A stretch of 24,827 bases of DNA, taken from the IMG/VR virus record IMGVR_UViG_3300037598_000039, positions 1 through 24,827 of that record; one strand, given 5' to 3'. This DNA comes from a virus. A program made the translations under genes and the position numbers. Position 1 is the first letter of the stretch. Each line of letters starts with the position of its first letter. Positions 3,747 to 24,827 of the stretch are shown here, in pieces. Under the pieces are notes generated by a model. That model was not told where the DNA came from. It saw only the letters and a list, made by a program, of their open reading frames with translations, and ran no database searches.

Positions 3747-6143
3747 ATGACTCCCGCTGGAACCAATCTGCTCTTGGCCCACGCTGACGCTGCTGCGGAC
3801 GATGTGGTCACGAAGTCGTTGCGGTTTGGCGGTGACGGATACCTTGACCGCGCATCAATCGGCACTCCAACTGACGCAACAAAATTCACCGCCTCCCTTT
3901 GGTTGAAACGTAATGCTCTCGGAGGGGATGACAATATCATTGCTGGGGGAACAAGCGGTTACGACTGGTCGTTATTTCGTGGTATCACCAGTGATGACAG
4001 ATTGTTTTTTGATGACTTCTCCAATGGTACGACTAATTACGCTTGGCGGTGGTCGCCTGTATTGAGAGATGTTGCCAGTTGGTATCATTTATTGTTGGTT
4101 TGGGACGCTTCACAGACCGCCACCACAGACAAAATGAAGTTGTATATTAACGGTAGTGAAGTCACTAGCGATTACACCCTCAACACTCCGGCAACTGACC
4201 ACCAAATCTCTATTACAAAGAGTGGAATGACCCAGTGGTTTGGCCGGAACGCTACTGGAGGTAGTGCCGACCATCAAATAGCTGATGCCTACTTAATCGA
4301 CGGGCAAGCACTAACGCCCACCAGCTTTGCCGAGGAGGATGAAACTACGGGGCAATGGAAACCGAAGGAGTACAGCGGAAGCGGTTATGGCACGAATGGA
4401 TTTCATCTGGATTTCGAGGATGACACCGACATCGGCAATGATGTGAGTGGGAATGATAACGATTTCACAGCCACCAACCTCGCCGCCTCGGATGTTGTGC
4501 TGGACAACCCCAGTGCGGGCAGCAATTTCTGTACGTTGAATCCGTTGGATATTAGCCGAGGCACACTCTCGGAAGGCAACACGAAGTACACTGCCTCGAC
4601 ATCTACTTGGGGTCAAGTGCGTTCCACGTTTGCTGCCTCAACGGGCAAGTGGTACTGGGAAACTACGCTAACACTTGTATCGGAATTGCAAGCAACCGTA
4701 GTGGGGATTTTGGAAAGCAATAAGTTGCAAGTCAACACCTATTGGTATCACACTTCGTGGAGTGTTTCAACAAACGGAAACTGCTACGGCGCACAAGACA
4801 ACAACCTTAAAGTGTCGAATGGTACGCAGACTTTATTTACTCACGGGGCTTCCACCGGCTCCGTCTACGGCTTCCACCTCGACCTAGACTCCGCTACACC
4901 CACGCTTGCACTTTCGGTGGATGGTGTTGATAAGGGAACAATGTTTTCGGGCCTCGCCGCTGTCGAGTATTCACCCGCGCTAAACTTGTATGGCGATGCC
5001 GGTGGGCAAAGTATCGTTGACGTTAACTTCGGGCAGGGCGACCCCAACGGAAACAATAATTATCAAGACGGGAACGGGAAGGGCAATTTCAAGTATGAAC
5101 CGGATTCGGGGTTCCTAGCGTGGTGTACCAATTCCCAGACTGCCACAATCGCCAAGCCAGCGGAGAATTTTGATGTGCTGACCTATGCGAGCAGCGGGGC
5201 CAAAACATTCGACAACGGCACAACCTCAATGCAACCCGATTTGGTTTGGGTGAAGGCGCGGGGGAATGCTTACGACCACGAGCTAACCGATTCAGTGCGC
5301 GGCGTGACGAAGGCGTTGAGCAGTAATGCTACTAACGTGGAAAGCACGGACAGCACGGGGTTGACTGCTTTCGGTTCGGATGGATTTACAGTGGGAGCAG
5401 GGACGAATTACTCAACGTCCGCGATGGTAGCGTGGTGTTGGAAGAAGTCAGCCGCCGCAGGATTCAATATAGTCGGCTGGACGGGTGATGATGTAGACGC
5501 CGCCGGAACTACGCAAGCGGTTACTCACGGCCTCGACGTTGCACCAGAGATGATTATTGTCAAGAAACGCACAGACAATAGTGGAGGGAGCAATGATTGG
5601 TTTGTTTACCATAAGGATTTGTCCAGTGGCTATTATTTACTTCTAAACACAACGGACGGTGAGACAGAGGGACTTACCTATCCCATCACCAGCATTGGAA
5701 TCACAAGTGCTACTTTTGGTGGCGACTTTGATTTGGACTTAAATTACGGTGGGGATACGATGATGGATCCAGACCCACCCGTTCCTGACACCTACATTGG
5801 GTATTTTATGGCGAGTGTCGCTGGCCATTCAATAGTGGGTTCGTTCATTGGCTCATCCGCCGCATTTATTTACACGGGTTTTCGTCCAGCTTTTATTTTA
5901 GCCAAGCGTTACGACGAATTTAGCACCGGAAACTGGCTGATGTTCGATGACCAGCGCGAGGGCTACAACGTGGACAACGATGACCTGATGGCAAACAGCA
6001 GCGCAGTCGAAGCAACCACTGACCACATTGATATTTTAAGCAACGGTTTTAAGATTCGCACCAGTGACGCAGATTTGAACGGGGGAACCGTAATCTATCT
6101 CGCCGTGGCTAAAAATCCATTCAAATACGCAAACGCAAGGTAA
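3747..6143 (+). CDS. LamG- and SPRY-like multidomain tail fibre / receptor-binding protein
   Basis: This 798-residue protein looks like a string of beta-sandwich domains. Residues of about 24-200 resemble a LamG/concanavalin-like lectin domain (KSLRFGGDGYLDR, then FTASLWLKR, then KLYINGSEV). Residues of about 255-430 resemble a SPRY domain (GKWYWETTL, then YGFHLDLDSATPTLALSVDG). From about 470 to the end come three related segments built around a PxxxxxK strand (PDLVWVKARG, PEMIIVKKRT, RPAFILAKRY), the arrangement called DUF7483 in many aquatic phage fibres. Together this suggests carbohydrate or surface-protein binding at the virion tip. It lies between the repetitive fibre and a fibre-assembly-like protein. 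Domain names come from pattern recognition and borders are approximate. Confidence 0.85.
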   Translation: MTPAGTNLLLAHADAAADDVVTKSLRFGGDGYLDRASIGTPTDATKFTASLWLKRNALGGDDNIIAGGTSGYDWSLFRGITSDDRLFFDDFSNGTTNYAWRWSPVLRDVASWYHLLLVWDASQTATTDKMKLYINGSEVTSDYTLNTPATDHQISITKSGMTQWFGRNATGGSADHQIADAYLIDGQALTPTSFAEEDETTGQWKPKEYSGSGYGTNGFHLDFEDDTDIGNDVSGNDNDFTATNLAASDVVLDNPSAGSNFCTLNPLDISRGTLSEGNTKYTASTSTWGQVRSTFAASTGKWYWETTLTLVSELQATVVGILESNKLQVNTYWYHTSWSVSTNGNCYGAQDNNLKVSNGTQTLFTHGASTGSVYGFHLDLDSATPTLALSVDGVDKGTMFSGLAAVEYSPALNLYGDAGGQSIVDVNFGQGDPNGNNNYQDGNGKGNFKYEPDSGFLAWCTNSQTATIAKPAENFDVLTYASSGAKTFDNGTTSMQPDLVWVKARGNAYDHELTDSVRGVTKALSSNATNVESTDSTGLTAFGSDGFTVGAGTNYSTSAMVAWCWKKSAAAGFNIVGWTGDDVDAAGTTQAVTHGLDVAPEMIIVKKRTDNSGGSNDWFVYHKDLSSGYYLLLNTTDGETEGLTYPITSIGITSATFGGDFDLDLNYGGDTMMDPDPPVPDTYIGYFMASVAGHSIVGSFIGSSAAFIYTGFRPAFILAKRYDEFSTGNWLMFDDQREGYNVDNDDLMANSSAVEATTDHIDILSNGFKIRTSDADLNGGTVIYLAVAKNPFKYANAR

Positions 6144-20976: not shown

Positions 20977-21190
20977 CTGACGCTAGTTTGTTAATCAGCA
21001 TAGTACGCTTCTTGCGTAGCGCAAAATACTCCTTCTTAATATCGCCATCATCCCAGTGGTAATCTCCCCCAGCACACTCACCCCTGTGCTGAAGGCACTT
21101 GGTAATCTTTATGTCAATAGCTTCAAGCACCCTCTGCATTTCCCATATAGAGATAGGTTTCCGGACAGGTCTGGTTATATCAAACAACAT
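20963..21190 (-). CDS. Small unknown helical protein, 75 aa
   Basis: I chose the ATG at 21190, which follows a strong ribosome-binding site (GGAGGG, 7 bases upstream); the frame remains open further upstream but lacks a site. The 75-residue product begins MLFDITRPVRKPISIWEMQR and is mostly helical, with three cysteines including HRGECAGG in the middle and a basic helix at the end (LRKKRTMLINKLASVSLE). It overlaps the stop of the DnaA-like gene by 11 bases, so it is the last gene of the - strand operon, and its own stop overlaps the converging + strand gene by 14 bases. No family recognised. Confidence 0.7.
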   Translation of the reverse strand: MLFDITRPVRKPISIWEMQRVLEAIDIKITKCLQHRGECAGGDYHWDDGDIKKEYFALRKKRTMLINKLASVSLE

Positions 21191-21581
21191 TTTCAAACTC
21201 CCTCCTCTTACGGGCAACCTCCCTCTGGCGGTGCATCCCCCTAAACTCACCGAAGTATCCCTCCGCATCCCTTATGCACTGGGAGTATCCTTTGGGCAGG
21301 TTAAGTTCCAGTTCATTCTCAATCTTCTTGTAGCCGTGCAGCGCGGTTCCGTGTGTGCGTCCCCCAAAAGCCGCTGCAATTTTGGGGTAGGACATGAAGC
21401 TGCCCGACTTCAATAGCCAGTAGGACGTTTGCCTTGCCATCACAATTCGCTCGGCGGCTCTTCGGCGGCCAGTAATATCCTCTGCCTCAACCCCGAATGC
21501 GATTGATGATGCCACTACCGCCATGCGAGCTAGAGTCATCTCCGACTCATTGAGTTCAATTAGTTTCTTTTTCTCTTTCAT
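21180..21581 (-). CDS. Stand-alone DnaA domain IV-like DNA-binding protein
   Basis: This 133-residue protein carries the DNA-binding domain of the bacterial initiator DnaA without its ATPase domains. The pattern is clear: VASSIAFGVEAEDITGRRRAAE (about residues 23-44, compare DnaA VAxxFxVxxxDIxGxxR), then MARQTSYWLL, and the signature YPKIAAAFGGRTHGTALHGY (about 65-84), which matches DnaA's IGxxFGGRDHTTVxHA with the RD replaced by RT and HTT by HGT. After the signature comes KKIE, as in DnaA. The rest is a basic helical tail. Such a protein could bind DnaA boxes of the host or the phage and help or block host initiation. A palindrome and a possible promoter lie just upstream. The leader is purine-rich without a strong ribosome-binding site. 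Confidence 0.85.
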   Translation of the reverse strand: MKEKKKLIELNESEMTLARMAVVASSIAFGVEAEDITGRRRAAERIVMARQTSYWLLKSGSFMSYPKIAAAFGGRTHGTALHGYKKIENELELNLPKGYSQCIRDAEGYFGEFRGMHRQREVARKRREFENVV

Positions 21582-21621
21582 AATTTCTCTTTCTTTTAAT
21601 CAACCCCCTCCCCGCAACCAC

Positions 21622-21650
21622 AGTATAAACAAAGCAGGGAAAGGGTTGGG
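21622..21650 (-). promoter_or_regulatory. Possible promoter for the DnaA-like gene
   Basis: In the 86-base gap before the DnaA-like gene the - strand reads TATACT at 21627-21622, one mismatch from the sigma-70 -10 box. At the right distance (about 17 bases) there is only a poor -35 (CCCAAC, 21650-21645), and the palindrome at 21649-21664 overlaps its edge. A promoter that needs an activator, or is blocked by a repressor, would look like this. The rest of the gap is C- and purine-rich with no other element. Confidence 0.25.
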
Positions 21651-21664
21651 TACTGTTTAGTACC
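21649..21664. promoter_or_regulatory. 16-bp palindrome GGTACTGTTTAGTACC
   Basis: Same family as 14897-14912 and 23604-23619: 6-bp arms GGTACT and AGTACC with GTTT between. It lies 3 bases after the stop of the DUF736-like gene and next to the -35 region of the possible promoter for the DnaA-like gene, the only copy in a non-coding gap. It has no T-run next to it on either side, so it is a better candidate for an operator than for a terminator. Confidence 0.55.
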
Positions 21665-21667
21665 TAA

Positions 21668-21958
21668 TTAAAACGGTGACTCACTACCGTCAGAGGCAGC
21701 GGGAACACCCTTCTGAACGGCGAGTCCAACCCGTGTCGTGCCTTGCTGGTCTTCTTCAGTCCAACCTGACAGGAACAAGGTGACCTTGCCTTCAGCATCA
21801 GCAGCGTCTTTAAGGAGTGCGAGGTCGAGTTCAACAACCTTGCCCTTGAAGTCAGGGTCGTTACTCCCTTCACGCTTGCGTTCGTTCTTATACAGCCAGC
21901 CCTTCTTTGCGACCTTACTGTAATCCAGTTTTACTTTTGGTTTTGTTTCTTCAGCCAT
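21668..21958 (-). CDS. DUF736-like small protein, 96 aa
   Basis: The product has a short polar start (MAEETKPKVKLDYSK), then GWLYKNERKREGSNDPDFKG and a strand FLSGW, a pattern that I know from small phage proteins related to DUF736 (GxLxKNxxKxxxxHPDxxGxxxxxGxxxWLSGW). These small OB-like or beta-barrel proteins often sit among recombination genes, and single-stranded DNA binding is a plausible but unproven role. Here it is encoded between the C-terminal part of a nuclease (4 bases after its stop) and the DnaA-like gene. The C-terminus (ASDGSESPF) is acidic with a final Phe, a feature shared with SSB tails. Confidence 0.6.
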   Translation of the reverse strand: MAEETKPKVKLDYSKVAKKGWLYKNERKREGSNDPDFKGKVVELDLALLKDAADAEGKVTLFLSGWTEEDQQGTTRVGLAVQKGVPAASDGSESPF

Positions 21959-21962
21959 ATTA

Positions 21963-22553
21963 CTATTTCTCTTTTAGCTTCTCTCTGACCCCGCTTGCCC
22001 ACCCCTCTACTGCATCCGCAATAGAGAGTAACCGCTTACTAACGGCTGGGTTGTTAATCGGTTCATCGAGATTGATATGCTTCATCAGTTCCAGTTGCCC
22101 AGCAACCGAGAAGCCAAATTGTTTTATTGCTGTGCAGGTTTCTTTCCTGCCACACCAGCGGCAGTAGTCGCAAGGCCAAGGTGAGCGGGTCGGGTCTTCA
22201 ACCGAATCAACAATCGCGTACACAATGTCCTCCGCTTCCTCTATGGTAATATCAAACTTCTCCACCTTCTTGTACTTGGAATAAACCAAGTGACAGGTGA
22301 GCTTCTTATCACCGAACTTCTGCATCACTCCCAATGCGTAAGCTGCCATCTGCTGCTTGTAGTCCCGCACCATCCCCGTCTTCAAGTCAAAGAGATGGCC
22401 CTTGCAGTAAGCGTCCATACTGCCAAATGAAACCTCCCCACCATCCCTCATAATAGAAACCCGTTGCTCGGAGATTAGTTTCTTCCTGCCGGACACAGAC
22501 AGGATGTAGCCCGCAGCCCAAACAATCTCATCGGGGTAATCTTTAATCGGCAT
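21963..22553 (-). CDS. RecB/Cas4-like PD-(D/E)XK nuclease, C-terminal part (split gene)
   Basis: The 196-residue protein holds the core nuclease motifs of the RecB/Cas4 (DUF2800-like) family: GSMD (D47), DLKTG (D56, K58), QQMAAYA (Q68, Y72). An iron-sulphur cysteine set follows, CDYCRWCGRKETC (C128, C131, C134, C140), with the C-x2-C-x5-C spacing of Cas4 and AddB. What is missing is the usual N-terminal helix with a cysteine and the GTxxHExLE motif; that sequence is present as the separate 68-aa protein at 23565-23771. The start overlaps the stop of the 57-aa gene (TAATG). Family members cut 5' or 3' single-strand ends and often work with an annealing protein such as the ERF protein here. Confidence 0.75.
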   Translation of the reverse strand: MPIKDYPDEIVWAAGYILSVSGRKKLISEQRVSIMRDGGEVSFGSMDAYCKGHLFDLKTGMVRDYKQQMAAYALGVMQKFGDKKLTCHLVYSKYKKVEKFDITIEEAEDIVYAIVDSVEDPTRSPWPCDYCRWCGRKETCTAIKQFGFSVAGQLELMKHINLDEPINNPAVSKRLLSIADAVEGWASGVREKLKEK

Positions 22554-22726
22554 TAGACTTTAGCCTTCCATGCTGTCTTGAGTTTCTTCTCAAGCAACCC
22601 GCGCAGGGTTGTGTCATCGCTACGGGTGATGCCAGTGAGGGCGCAACTCACCTCACTCTTGCTTGCCTTCGGGTCACGCAGAACTCTCTGCGCTATCTCT
22701 TCCCATTGTTTTATTTTGTCTGTCAT
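22553..22726 (-). CDS. Small unknown protein, 57 aa
   Basis: ATG 22726 follows GAGGAGAT (6-8 bases), the strongest ribosome-binding site in this operon. The frame is open upstream, but those residues overlap a nuclease gene and show no pattern. The product is one charged helical protein (MTDKIKQWEEIAQRVLRD, then KKLKTAWKAKV at the end). It overlaps the upstream PD-(D/E)XK gene by 4 bases (ATGA) and the next gene by 1 (TAATG). No family recognised; it is one of the genes that separate the two halves of the nuclease. Confidence 0.65.
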   Translation of the reverse strand: MTDKIKQWEEIAQRVLRDPKASKSEVSCALTGITRSDDTTLRGLLEKKLKTAWKAKV

Positions 22727-23214
22727 GGTCTTATCTCCTCCTTTGGAACAGCGAACTGTTGCAGTTGTGATTGGTTCAGGGCGTACCCTTTGCCGTGTCC
22801 CAAGTCCATAATGTTTTCCTCTTTCAATAGCTCCTCTGCACTTGCGTATCCGGCCAGCTTGTATGTCGGACACTGCCCAACCATCAACACATAGTAGTCG
22901 GCATCTTCCGGTGTCTTCTTGAGAGTAGCCAGCAACTTCCCGTTCTCATACTTTGTAACCTTAACATCTATGCGTTCCCCCGCCCTGCCATCCACATCCC
23001 AGCCGCCCTTGCGTGGGCCGATGGTCAGGTCAGGCCAGTAGTTAAAGTGTTTACAAAACGCCATCTCCGATGCCATCCCTTCCAAGTCTGTCTCGTGGTC
23101 TGATTGCTCTCCCATCTTCCGGTTGGTCACACCCGCCGCACGGGCCACATTAAATCTCATCGCTGCCAGCATTTGTGCAGTTGCAACCTCCGCAGAATCG
23201 AGAGTGATAGTCAT
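22723..23214 (-). CDS. PD-(D/E)XK endonuclease-like protein, 163 aa
   Basis: After a helical start, the nuclease core is visible in residues 40-95: GMASEMAF (E50), then GPRKGGWDV (D73), RIDVK (D83, K85) and a following strand-helix pattern (YENGKLLATLKK). This is the E...D...(D/E)xK arrangement of restriction-type nucleases, in the phage group with a GxxxEhhh helix and GGxD...GxxhDVK. The strand YYVLMVGQC matches the next fold element. The C-terminal 60 residues are mixed. The start overlaps the stop of the 27-aa membrane peptide (ATGA). It is likely to be a host- or phage-DNA nuclease, but the substrate cannot be read. Confidence 0.7.
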   Translation of the reverse strand: MTITLDSAEVATAQMLAAMRFNVARAAGVTNRKMGEQSDHETDLEGMASEMAFCKHFNYWPDLTIGPRKGGWDVDGRAGERIDVKVTKYENGKLLATLKKTPEDADYYVLMVGQCPTYKLAGYASAEELLKEENIMDLGHGKGYALNQSQLQQFAVPKEEIRP

Positions 23215-23294
23215 GTCGAGAGCAACTTATAAATCATAAACATAATCCCAGCCAGCAGTAGGAAGTCTATCGCTAGTGAGAGGTTACGTTTCAT
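23211..23294 (-). CDS. 27-aa membrane peptide
   Basis: The frame from ATG 23294 to TGA 23211 encodes 27 residues: basic start MKRNLSLA, then a hydrophobic stretch (IDFLLLAGIMFMIYKLLS). One span with a positive N-terminus predicts a cytoplasmic N-terminus, with one lysine close to the C-terminus. It starts 1 base after the stop of the MazG-like gene (TAACATG) and overlaps the next ATG by 4 bases (ATGA), so it is in register with a translationally coupled chain; GGAGGG lies about 11 bases upstream. These joints make it more likely than a chance frame. It could be a small toxin, a superinfection or lysis helper, or a membrane regulator. Function unknown. Confidence 0.55.
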   Translation of the reverse strand: MKRNLSLAIDFLLLAGIMFMIYKLLST

Positions 23295-23295
23295 G

Positions 23296-23562
23296 TTAGT
23301 CTTCACCCTCCAGTGAGGCTCGTAATTTGCCACACTCCCTACGCAGTGCTTCATTCTCTTCCGCAAGAATGGAATTACTCCGCTTCATGCTCTGGATGTA
23401 GAACCATAAGTCCGTCACCTCGTACTCCAAGTCTTCCCACTGCACACGAAAGTCAAGGTTGCCTCCATGCTCCTTCTGACCAGCATCGAACTTGGGTGGT
23501 GCTACGCTGTTGAATCTTTCGATAGCAGCGTCTCTTATTTCTGATGGAGTCCTAGAGTTCAT
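23296..23562 (-). CDS. MazG/NTP-pyrophosphohydrolase-like protein with C-terminal coiled coil
   Basis: This 88-residue protein has PPKFDAGQKEHGGNL (residues 22-36) followed by a helix EDLEYEVTDLWFYIQSM. I recognise this FDxGQxEHGGxL...LExExxDLWxY arrangement in phage proteins annotated as MazG-like or dATP/dGTP pyrophosphohydrolases, where paired acidic residues (here E45, E47 and D50) hold Mg. Only one such helix is visible, so it may be a degenerate or regulatory relative, or half of a dimer. The last 20 residues (ILAEENEALRRECGKLRASL) are a leucine-zipper-like coiled coil. It is the first gene after the N-terminal nuclease part (gap of 2 bases). Confidence 0.5.
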   Translation of the reverse strand: MNSRTPSEIRDAAIERFNSVAPPKFDAGQKEHGGNLDFRVQWEDLEYEVTDLWFYIQSMKRSNSILAEENEALRRECGKLRASLEGED

Positions 23563-23564
23563 TG

Positions 23565-23771
23565 TTATTCCTTTGCTAAAGCCTTAACTTCCTTTACCAG
23601 TTTGGTACTGCACAGTACCTCCTCAAGTTTCTCATGCAGCTTGGTTCCTCTGATTGCTGCTTGCCCTACCGTATCCGATGACTTATAGCACGGACACTTT
23701 GCCAGTGCTGGCAGTGATGACGGCGGGAAGTCGGGGTGATGCGCTCTATCGTTATGATTTATTTCTGCCAT
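23565..23771 (-). CDS. RecB/Cas4-like nuclease, N-terminal part (split gene)
   Basis: The 68 residues match the N-terminus of RecB/Cas4-like (DUF2800-type) nucleases: PPSSLPALAKCP (first iron-sulphur cysteine candidate C26) and IRGTKLHEKLEEVL (H46 and E50 of motif I). The frame then ends with ALAKE and a stop; the D, DxK and cysteine motifs are absent here and are encoded four genes later at 21963-22553. There is no recognisable ribosome-binding site before ATG 23771: the bases CACCACTTAACTTT are what remains after a structured RNA region. It contains the palindrome 23604-23619 near its end. It would be a subunit of a two-chain nuclease, or a remnant. Confidence 0.65.
   Translation of the reverse strand: MAEINHNDRAHHPDFPPSSLPALAKCPCYKSSDTVGQAAIRGTKLHEKLEEVLCSTKLVKEVKALAKE
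23604..23619. promoter_or_regulatory. 16-bp palindrome GGTACTGCACAGTACC
   Basis: The exact reverse complement of the site at 14897-14912, with perfect 7-bp arms. It lies within the last third of the N-terminal nuclease gene, 42 bases before the ATG of the MazG-like gene on the - strand. I see no -10/-35 elements nearby. Half-sites GGTACTG occur in the same operon at 23852-23858 (- strand) and at 24760-24766 (+ strand). Confidence 0.5.
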
Positions 23772-23775
23772 AAAG

Positions 23776-23885
23776 TTAAGTGGTGAACGAGCGGGTCACG
23801 GCGTAGGCTCAATACGGGGGAACATAACCCCGCCTGAAGATAACTATCCTCCAGTACCATCGCTGCCGCCCGTTCACCATGTTAA
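23776..23885 (-). ncRNA. Multi-branched structured RNA between ERF and nuclease genes (cis-regulatory or small RNA candidate)
   Basis: In the - strand transcript a 14-bp stem joins 23879-23866 (UGGUGAACGGGCGG) to 23794-23781 (CCGCUCGUUCACCA), with one G.U pair; beyond a small loop UUAA pairs with UUAA. Inside it are two hairpins: 23854-23834, an 8-bp stem with a bulged G and an AGUU loop, also containing a G.U; and 23832-23815, CGGGG/CCCCG with an 8-base loop. Both G.U pairs would be A.C mismatches on the + strand, so the structure favours the transcribed strand. It ends four bases before the ATG of the next gene, which lacks a ribosome-binding site. A 23-codon frame inside (ATG 23880) lacks support. 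No known RNA family recognised. Confidence 0.45.
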
Positions 23886-24449
23886 TCATTTGATGAATCC
23901 ATCAGCAGCGTCTTGTGCTGCCAACACCTTCAGTTCGTCAACCGATGCAACACCACCCTTGGGCTTGTAGTTGCTGCGCTTGCCAACTTTAGCTTCCACA
24001 TTCTTTTCACCGACAGCCTTGTTGCCGTCATCATCAGGCTCGTCCGTTGCCAGACAGCAGATGCTTTGCAGTGAGTAGCGTCGAGCGTAGGTCATTGCTG
24101 ACCCCAGCGATTGCATATCACCGCGCTTGTATTCCAAAGGCATCACACTCCTAATGGACTGCTCACCGTACAGCAGGGTGGTCACTAGGACTGTATGCGG
24201 TGGGTAGGTTACGGGGTCGTAGTCTGTTGGAATCTTGGTGTGTTCCGGTACATACTCCACGGTTTGCGTCACGGCGATGCCGTGCTTGTTGAGTACGTTA
24301 CGACAGGCTTCAATCACCTCATCTAATCCCGCATACTTCGACTTGAAGTAGGGGTTGTCAGCGGATTTAATCGCTTTCTTTAGCTCCATCTGCGCCTTCG
24401 CAAGCACGGCTGGTAGCTTATCATTCTCACTGGTTTGTTTATTTGGCAT
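23886..24449 (-). CDS. erf: ERF-family single-strand DNA annealing recombinase
   Basis: This 187-residue protein is a clear ERF (Essential Recombination Function) family member: NPYFKSKYAGLDEVIEACR (about residues 32-50), LNKHGIAVTQ, and MPLEYKRGDMQSLGSAMTYARRYSLQSICCL (about residues 103-133, cited in parts), followed by DEPDDDGN. These are the family hallmarks, with the DxQSxGSAxTYARRYSL core complete. The C-terminal tail is charged and ends with AADGFIK. ERF proteins form rings that anneal complementary single strands, for recombination-dependent replication or circularisation, with a nuclease partner that makes the single strands. Here the neighbours supply two such partners. The gene overlaps the resolvase-like gene by 11 bases. 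The leader is AAAGAAAGAAAGAG, purine-rich. Confidence 0.9.
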   Translation of the reverse strand: MPNKQTSENDKLPAVLAKAQMELKKAIKSADNPYFKSKYAGLDEVIEACRNVLNKHGIAVTQTVEYVPEHTKIPTDYDPVTYPPHTVLVTTLLYGEQSIRSVMPLEYKRGDMQSLGSAMTYARRYSLQSICCLATDEPDDDGNKAVGEKNVEAKVGKRSNYKPKGGVASVDELKVLAAQDAADGFIK

Positions 24450-24759
24450 TGCTCTTTCTTTCTTTTATCAGGTTAAAGAAGGTTGGCGCGAGCATTGTAA
24501 CCATCCAAGGGCCACCGTTCTTACGGTGGGCAACCACTGGCGGCTTGTCCCCGCACTCTCCTTCCGCTTGTTTCATCGCACTATCTATGTTGAGTCTCTC
24601 GACCCTCTTCACCTCAAAATGATAGGGTAGGTTGGTCACCACATCAGGGCTATCAGGTGAACCGGAGAATTGCTGGCCTCTCCTAGCCTCGTACCCGTGC
24701 GAGCGGATGACATCCCGCCACTCCAACTCGCCACGCTTTCCTTTGTCTCTACTGTTCAT
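24439..24759 (-). CDS. Holliday-junction-resolvase-like PD-(D/E)XK nuclease, 106 aa
   Basis: The 106 residues fit the phage/archaeal Hjc-like resolvase plan: KGKRGELEW (E11), GSPDSPDVV (D39), YHFEVKRVE (E49, K51), then a helix and a final strand (PWMVTMLAPTFFNLI). These are the E, D and ExK residues of a PD-(D/E)XK active site. The family resolves branched DNA or trims ends, in keeping with ERF-mediated recombination and packaging. It is the first gene of the visible operon; the ATG at 24759 has no clear ribosome-binding site. The half-site GGTACTG (24760-24766, + strand) touches the start codon. A general VRR-NUC-type nuclease is the alternative reading. Confidence 0.75.
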   Translation of the reverse strand: MNSRDKGKRGELEWRDVIRSHGYEARRGQQFSGSPDSPDVVTNLPYHFEVKRVERLNIDSAMKQAEGECGDKPPVVAHRKNGGPWMVTMLAPTFFNLIKERKSNAK

Positions 24760-24827
24760 GGTACTGTTCGGGATTGTGAGGCGGGCTGCACCGCAAGGAG
24801 GTCTGGGGAAGGAATCCCCAAGAGGGC
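24760..24827 (-). promoter_or_regulatory. Leader before the resolvase-like gene, with two hairpins and a palindrome half-site
   Basis: This is the first 68 bases upstream on the - strand, cut by the window edge. TGGGGA/TCCCCA pair around TTCCT (24820-24804), and GCGG/CCGC pair around TGCAGC (24794-24781). GGTACTGT (24760-24767, + strand) directly precedes the start codon on the other strand. No -10/-35 pair is visible. It may be the 5' leader of the operon or the spacer after an earlier gene. Confidence 0.3.

Follow-up and report, generated by a model that had tools for sequence, protein, structure and literature searches.

In the early operon of this virus, 114 nt separate the stop codon of a gene for an ERF-family annealing protein from the next ATG (23885-23772, minus strand). 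This raises the question of what the gap contains and what it does for the genes on either side. A preliminary description had taken it for an undescribed structured RNA, either controlling translation of the following gene or set free as a small RNA. The window, i.e., the whole stretch of DNA that was analyzed, is IMG/VR virus record IMGVR_UViG_3300037598_000039, positions 1-24,827 (24,827 nt). Its plus strand carries podovirus-like structural genes and its minus strand the early operon, which comprises a RusA-like resolvase (phrog_244), the ERF annealing protein (PF04404), a 68-aa gene, several small genes, a phrog_69 exonuclease piece, an SSB-like protein, and a protein with a DnaA C-terminal domain (PF08299, 51.9 bits; a small phage protein at 21180-21581, minus strand, in which the domain is the DNA-binding one).

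The 68-aa gene behind the gap gave no family match on its own in Pfam and PHROG profile searches. In all close relatives, the exonuclease consists of this 68-aa N-half (23565-23771) and a 196-aa C-half (21963-22553) with varying genes between them, and in the outgroups L020, L021, and L241 it is one unsplit gene. From these arrangements, the split appears to be an old, fixed state. Named relatives of the exonuclease piece were limited to the Akkermansia phages Chantilly and Chambord (30%), and a search of a genome collection with the nuclease returned a single distant match, an Akkermansia MAG (27%). Such matches hint at a Verrucomicrobiota host rather than establish one.

Structure of the gap behind the ERF gene

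The transcript of the gap, here called E1, had a minimum free energy of -47.4 kcal/mol, compared to -33.9 +/- 3.6 kcal/mol for 200 dinucleotide shuffles (z -3.79), none of which was equally stable. The fold comprises a 14-bp closing stem, 2+3+3 more pairs flanking a small asymmetric internal loop, and two hairpins. The preliminary description thus held with respect to the 114-base gap, the 14-bp stem with two hairpins on the minus strand, a stability above that of shuffled sequence, and two G-U pairs in the transcribed strand, one of which lies in the closing stem and one in an inner helix. Its statement that the structure ends four bases before the start codon needed correction, as the closing stem finishes 9 nt ahead of the ATG (23772-23780). 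The features of the locus are given below in the order of transcription; A1 is an alignment of 17 E1 copies.

23886-24449, minus strand: ERF-family single-strand annealing protein, 187 aa, upstream gene (Pfam PF04404, 89 bits; phrog_155, 114 bits)
23880-23885, minus strand: unpaired linker from the ERF stop to the stem, 5-6 nt in every type (relatives compared)
23866-23879, minus strand: closing stem, 5' arm (UGGUGAACGGGCGG), 6 nt after the ERF stop (fold; also recovered, with the 3' arm, as an inverted repeat; 14 pairs standard in 17/17 aligned copies, six double-changed)
23856-23865, minus strand: internal-loop core, 5' strand (CAGCGAUGGU), conserved (A1; 8/9 identical in the distant L105)
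23834-23854, minus strand: apical hairpin 1, window variant, not conserved in relatives (fold; apical parts of relatives differ; absent in L114)
23814-23833, minus strand: apical hairpin 2, window variant, not conserved in relatives (fold; relatives compared)
23795-23808, minus strand: conserved core, 3' strand (GCCUACGCCGUGAC) (A1; all 17 copies share CGCCG; L105 identical at 13/13 compared positions)
23781-23794, minus strand: closing stem, 3' arm (CCGCUCGUUCACCA), 9 nt before the next ATG (fold; inverted repeat; covariation)
23772-23780, minus strand: AU-rich leader CUUAACUUU of the downstream gene, without Shine-Dalgarno (SD) sequence (anti-SD duplex +1.2 kcal/mol)
23565-23771, minus strand: split exonuclease N-terminal half, 68 aa, downstream gene (by-eye alignment with the N-terminus of the unsplit nucleases in L020/L021/L241)

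Rfam 15 contained no match to E1 in the window at the gathering score, and none in seven relatives at E <= 0.5; a tRNA/tmRNA search found none. An intrinsic terminator, i.e., a GC-rich hairpin with a U-run, was not found in the window: the stem is followed by CUUAACUUU, and a scan of the minus strand was negative. A UUUUUU run after the stem was seen in L019 alone.

Several other readings of the gap were rejected. An open reading frame (MVNGRQRW...) opens in the window, and the relatives L001, L015, and L110 have a TAG stop inside the core, so the gap is noncoding and does not encode a leader peptide. Stop readthrough, frameshifting, or bypass would not fit the use of all three stop codons, varying last codons, gap lengths that ignore the frame, and an in-frame stop after three codons in type I (see below). 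A transposed element with target duplication was discarded, as TTAAC occurs on both flanks in type I only. By eye, the strands of the internal loop misfit the G-A/A-G rule of a kink-turn. The core sequence ACGCCGUGA resembles ACGCCGUAA of 16S rRNA, which we presume to be chance.

E1 in related phages

A search for ERF returned 80 loci, in which the DNA behind the gene was then read. The same site was occupied by E1 in about 20 related contigs of IMG/VR. Three types were distinguished by their stem sequences (I, GGUGAACGGGCGG; II, UGAGGGAUGGGCAG; III, UGGAGGGUGGGCAG), and a type IV with a different fold occupies the same site behind ERF in L019 and L101-L104. In L004, L106, and L018, E1 is absent and another gene stands behind ERF. 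Wherever present, E1 lies directly behind the ERF gene, and the gene downstream of it differs, being the nuclease N-half or one of at least five others. The stem begins 5-6 nt after the ERF stop in all types, including type IV and L114, and its distance to the following start codon ranges over 7-17 nt.

The preliminary description had asked whether relatives keep the paired positions and covary, and both were found. In A1, 14 of 14 closing-stem pairs were standard in 17/17 copies (cells with letters); at least six pairs had changed on both sides, and wobbles were seen at three pairs. The covariation score of the 22 pairs making up the scored structure was 0.320, compared to 0.188 +/- 0.014 for column-shuffled alignments (reached in 0/500) and <=0.107 in slid registers. 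The inner helices are conserved by sequence more than by covariation.

Read on the transcript strand, the wobble cells of the stem in A1 numbered 23 G-U vs 0 A-C, which indicates that selection acts on the transcript. This count is a strong strand argument and, together with the covariation, upholds the earlier proposal of selection for RNA rather than for a DNA inverted repeat. The folding energy alone is not strand-specific in the family, the complement being more stable in several relatives (e.g., L001 and copy b of L013). A covariance model built from the 17 copies (R1) scored its full-length training copies at about 70-99 bits when these were read as transcript and at 12-22 bits on the opposite strand.

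R1 also led to a further copy, independent of the others, in L105 (51.9 bits, E 2e-12), whose ERF protein is 36% identical to that of the window. Between these two, the core strands were nearly identical (CAGCGAUGG, 8/9; CCUACGCCGUGAC, 13/13), whereas the stem arms matched at 36% and 50%; the outer helix is therefore held by structure and the loop by sequence. With a covarying helix on the transcribed strand and a fixed position beside genes, E1 is a cis-acting structured RNA.

It is well supported that E1 represents an undescribed family of structured RNAs in phages, present in none of the catalogues searched. The succession of ERF, element, and nuclease N-half had no DNA match among 50,697 phage records, and an IMG/VR scan for the core pattern yielded, beyond the known copies, only apparent chance matches. 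Applied to ERF or nuclease loci at greater distance, the RNA model gave no convincing match, and none of the genomes searched showed a convincing second copy elsewhere.

Some relatives carry modified elements. In L114, the interior is gone and the stem alone is left as a 12-bp hairpin (GGGUGGGUGGG-CGCGA-CCCACUCACCC). L015 joins a type II stem to an L001-type interior. In L013 (2836-3063), two E1 elements with different stem types lie in tandem, with a remnant of the ERF 3' end (CTTAAATGATAAC) between them; from this arrangement, the tandem appears to be a recombination scar. The type IV elements (L101:1769-1882, L103, L104, L019:4523-4633) have a compensated hairpin of their own with a conserved GAGA loop.

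Shine-Dalgarno sequences behind E1 and a second element

The presence of an SD sequence was scored as the pairing energy (kcal/mol) of the 20 nt before the start codon with the anti-SD sequence ACCUCCUU. Directly behind E1, the nuclease N-half gene scored +1.2 to +1.5 in types I-III and -2.0 in type IV, compared to -5.6 to -10.6 in ten contexts in which another gene intervenes or E1 is absent; part of the scored 20 nt is occupied by the 3' arm of E1, which weakens the score mechanically, and 7-17 nt are still free. In L105, where the gene has a GTG start overlapping the preceding gene, the score was -2.8. The separation for the nuclease was complete (p about 8e-5 if the contexts are independent); given the shared phylogeny of the contexts, the exact p values of the swap (8e-5, 1e-5) overstate the evidence. 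Two further families showed the same shift, namely CAWLDGF (-11.0 away from E1 vs +2.9/+3.1 behind it) and NPDFDVD (-5.7 vs +0.7). In the window, no SD sequence was found within 20 nt of the downstream start, in line with the earlier remark that this gene lacks a ribosome-binding site; upstream of the stem, the ERF end GATTCATCAAATGATTAACA contains no AGGAGG by eye.

Most genes directly behind E1 are without an SD sequence. Good ones occur right behind it in L001/L002 (-8.0), L015 (-7.9), and L011 (AAGGAG, by eye), which means that E1 does not exclude an SD. With genes called automatically, other genes of these contigs were also without a strong SD, namely at 28% of the starts lying >30 nt behind the preceding stop. 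As to the control of translation suggested in the preliminary description, the swap within one gene family speaks for it indirectly; its application to one particular gene does not fit an element that is phased to the ERF stop and followed by various genes.

A screen for SD-less starts at a long distance from the preceding stop revealed another structured gap (E2), which lies before the RusA-like gene that precedes ERF. E2 is unrelated to E1 and has the same layout. It is cut by the edge of the window, where it comprises the following parts:

24774-24827, minus strand: E2, directly before the RusA-like gene, 5' incomplete (covariance model R2, 39.3 bits, E 8.5e-7)
24774-24794, minus strand: 3' arm of E2
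24795-24802, minus strand: unpaired ACCUCCUU
24803-24821, minus strand: inner hairpin of E2

Full copies are found at L002:810-886, L105:2644-2711, L092:1544-1613, and others, always 1-5 nt after the stop of a small gene resembling a ribbon-helix-helix (RHH) protein. They have a closing stem of 14-21 bp and an inner hairpin, with nine predicted pairs double-changed, and each phage gave a single strong match to R2. On its 3' side, the internal loop carries ACCUCCUU (GCCUCCUU in L013/L016), which is the anti-SD sequence of 16S rRNA. This motif was unpaired in 16 of 18 folded copies and had two bases paired in the other two. The RusA-like gene scored +0.1 to +3.2 behind E2 (nine distinct contexts), compared to -1.5 to -7.1 in ten further contexts. 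An SD is present in some genes of other kinds behind E2 (L012, L014, L015, L114). That the same gene occurs with or without an SD depending on the RNA in front of it, and this at two unrelated elements, amounts to a rare natural experiment.

The outgroups show different junctions. In L020 and L021, ERF overlaps the unsplit nuclease by 4 nt (GTGA), and in L241 the unsplit nuclease overlaps its upstream gene (ATGA). L019 is without E2, and the start of its RusA-like gene overlaps the small RHH-like gene by 8 nt (GTGAATAG). Both E1 and E2 are thus located at junctions whose genes, in relatives lacking the elements, are coupled by overlap.

Possible functions of E1

Our preferred reading, to which we give an even chance, is that E1 is a stem bridging a stop and a start, allowing SD-independent initiation at the next gene that is coupled to ERF. 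E1 would act in cis within the early polycistronic transcript, and its folded stem would shorten the route from the ERF stop to the next AUG by about 95 nt, bringing the two close together. A ribosome terminating on ERF could then cross the stem and initiate again at this AUG without an SD. The nuclease, or any other gene inserted there, would stay translationally coupled to ERF, and the conserved internal loop (AGCGAU / ACGCCGUGA) might tune the coupling, perhaps through a bound protein. E1 is locked to the ERF stop with different genes behind it, which argues for coupling at the junction rather than for control reserved to the nuclease. The bridge is further supported by the SD swap at both elements, by the overlapping gene pairs of the outgroups, by L114, which retains the stem alone, and by a stop spacing that is fixed while the stem-to-start distance varies. 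Against it stand the SD sequences found right behind E1 in some relatives and the sequence conservation of the internal loop, which a plain bridge leaves unexplained. Should this reading hold, E1 would maintain the translational coupling of two genes across about 100 nt.

The nearest known counterpart is found at the T4 genes 25 and 38, where an intercistronic hairpin forms a split ribosome-binding site (PMC3014915). Like E1, this phage hairpin lies between genes and is kept across related phages; in T4 it shortens the distance to the start and aids initiation (PMC3014915). However, it joins an SD to the AUG over about 20 nt (PMC3014915), whereas E1, with about 100 nt and a conserved internal loop, would join the upstream stop to an AUG with no SD right before it. 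Coupling by overlap and termination-reinitiation resembles the proposed role of E1 in that an SD-less downstream start relies on the upstream gene (PMC12548453), and the outgroups use overlaps of the GTGA/ATGA type. It differs in that stop and start are mostly 87-121 nt apart at E1 with a covarying stem between them, and structure after the stop is called unfavorable in this review (PMC12548453). In a synthetic operon, structure just after the stop correlated negatively with coupling (Chemla 2020, as reviewed in PMC12548453), and this result counts against the bridge.

A processing or protection structure of the ERF mRNA is an unlikely alternative. RNase III or another nuclease would cut the stem, or the stem would shield the ERF 3' end, leading to unequal amounts of ERF and downstream protein. 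In phage T7, RNase III acts on long imperfect stems that separate early genes, and E1 resembles such signals in its long imperfect stem, asymmetric internal loop, and location between early genes. Its lock to the ERF stop while the downstream gene changes, and the 12-bp hairpin kept by L114, would suit this function as well. E1 differs from the T7-type signals in its strict stop spacing, the absence of an SD behind it, and a core conserved in sequence. Processing or protection leaves the absence of the SD behind E1 and its presence elsewhere unexplained; moreover, a stem of 12 bp is short for RNase III, and with no U-run in the window (L019 excepted), E1 is no intrinsic terminator. RNase III processing and 3'-end protection could possibly coexist with the bridge.

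A phage protein, a host protein, or a ligand might bind the internal loop, which would make E1 a translational or transcriptional switch of the operon; this is rather improbable. The core AGCGAU / ACGCCGUGA is kept in L105, its 3' strand at all 13 positions, despite stem arms of 36-50% and an ERF identity of 36%, as would be expected of a binding site. On the other hand, L114 has no interior, L005 and L008 have a diverged core, a different core occupies the site in type IV, and the downstream start codon lies outside the fold.

A free small RNA, released from the operon or transcribed within it, could account for the stable, compact, and conserved fold, but is very unlikely. A sigma-70-type scan of the minus strand (21500-24827) revealed no promoter-like or terminator-like sites flanking E1, and no U-run follows the stem in the window, so this option of the preliminary description found no support; E1 also occurs always at one junction, in one copy per genome (two adjacent ones in L013), and at constant spacing to the upstream stop.

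The variable downstream genes, the L013 tandem with its ERF-end remnant, and the L015 combination of a type II stem with an L001 interior would suit a DNA-level feature, such as a module-boundary hairpin or a recombination site for the exchange of downstream genes, but this is hardly credible, as a recombination site should keep its sequence whereas the stem is rewritten with its pairing kept and wobbles on the transcript strand only, and no flanking direct repeats are common to all types.

A wider reading, which we consider doubtful, would combine both elements with the bridge. E1 and E2 may belong to an undescribed class of self-bridging RNA spacers that replace the SD between genes overlapping in the outgroups, so that new genes could plug in behind them with coupling kept. 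The ribosome might be handled directly, by E2 via its perfect anti-SD copy (ACCUCCUU) and by E1 via another loop motif at the same place. The anti-SD sequence displayed by E2 raises a separate question.

Other phage elements at gene junctions were also compared. PeSLs are mobile stem-loop cassettes of T4-type phages and, like E1, are stem-loops at junctions with shuffled downstream genes. Unlike them, E1 occurs in one copy per genome at one junction, has no promoter, and shows compensatory pairing instead of a conserved sequence.

Two further kinds of noncoding sequence were observed among the loci. Phages without E1 (L106:2758-4001; L107 and L113 just before 4001) carry a noncoding array before the nuclease N-half gene, consisting of degenerate GGTNN pentamers punctuated by AAGGAATGGTTTAATGAATTTAATTT and extending over about 1.2 kb in L106. 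On the minus strand of L082, three similar hairpin cassettes lie near 5823, 6177, and 7782 (reverse-complement coordinates) as dispersed repeats in one phage. In each cassette, a tail similar to TAGTCAGT/TAGTTAGT follows a GCGCCC..GGGCGC core, and a small gene with an SD lies behind it.
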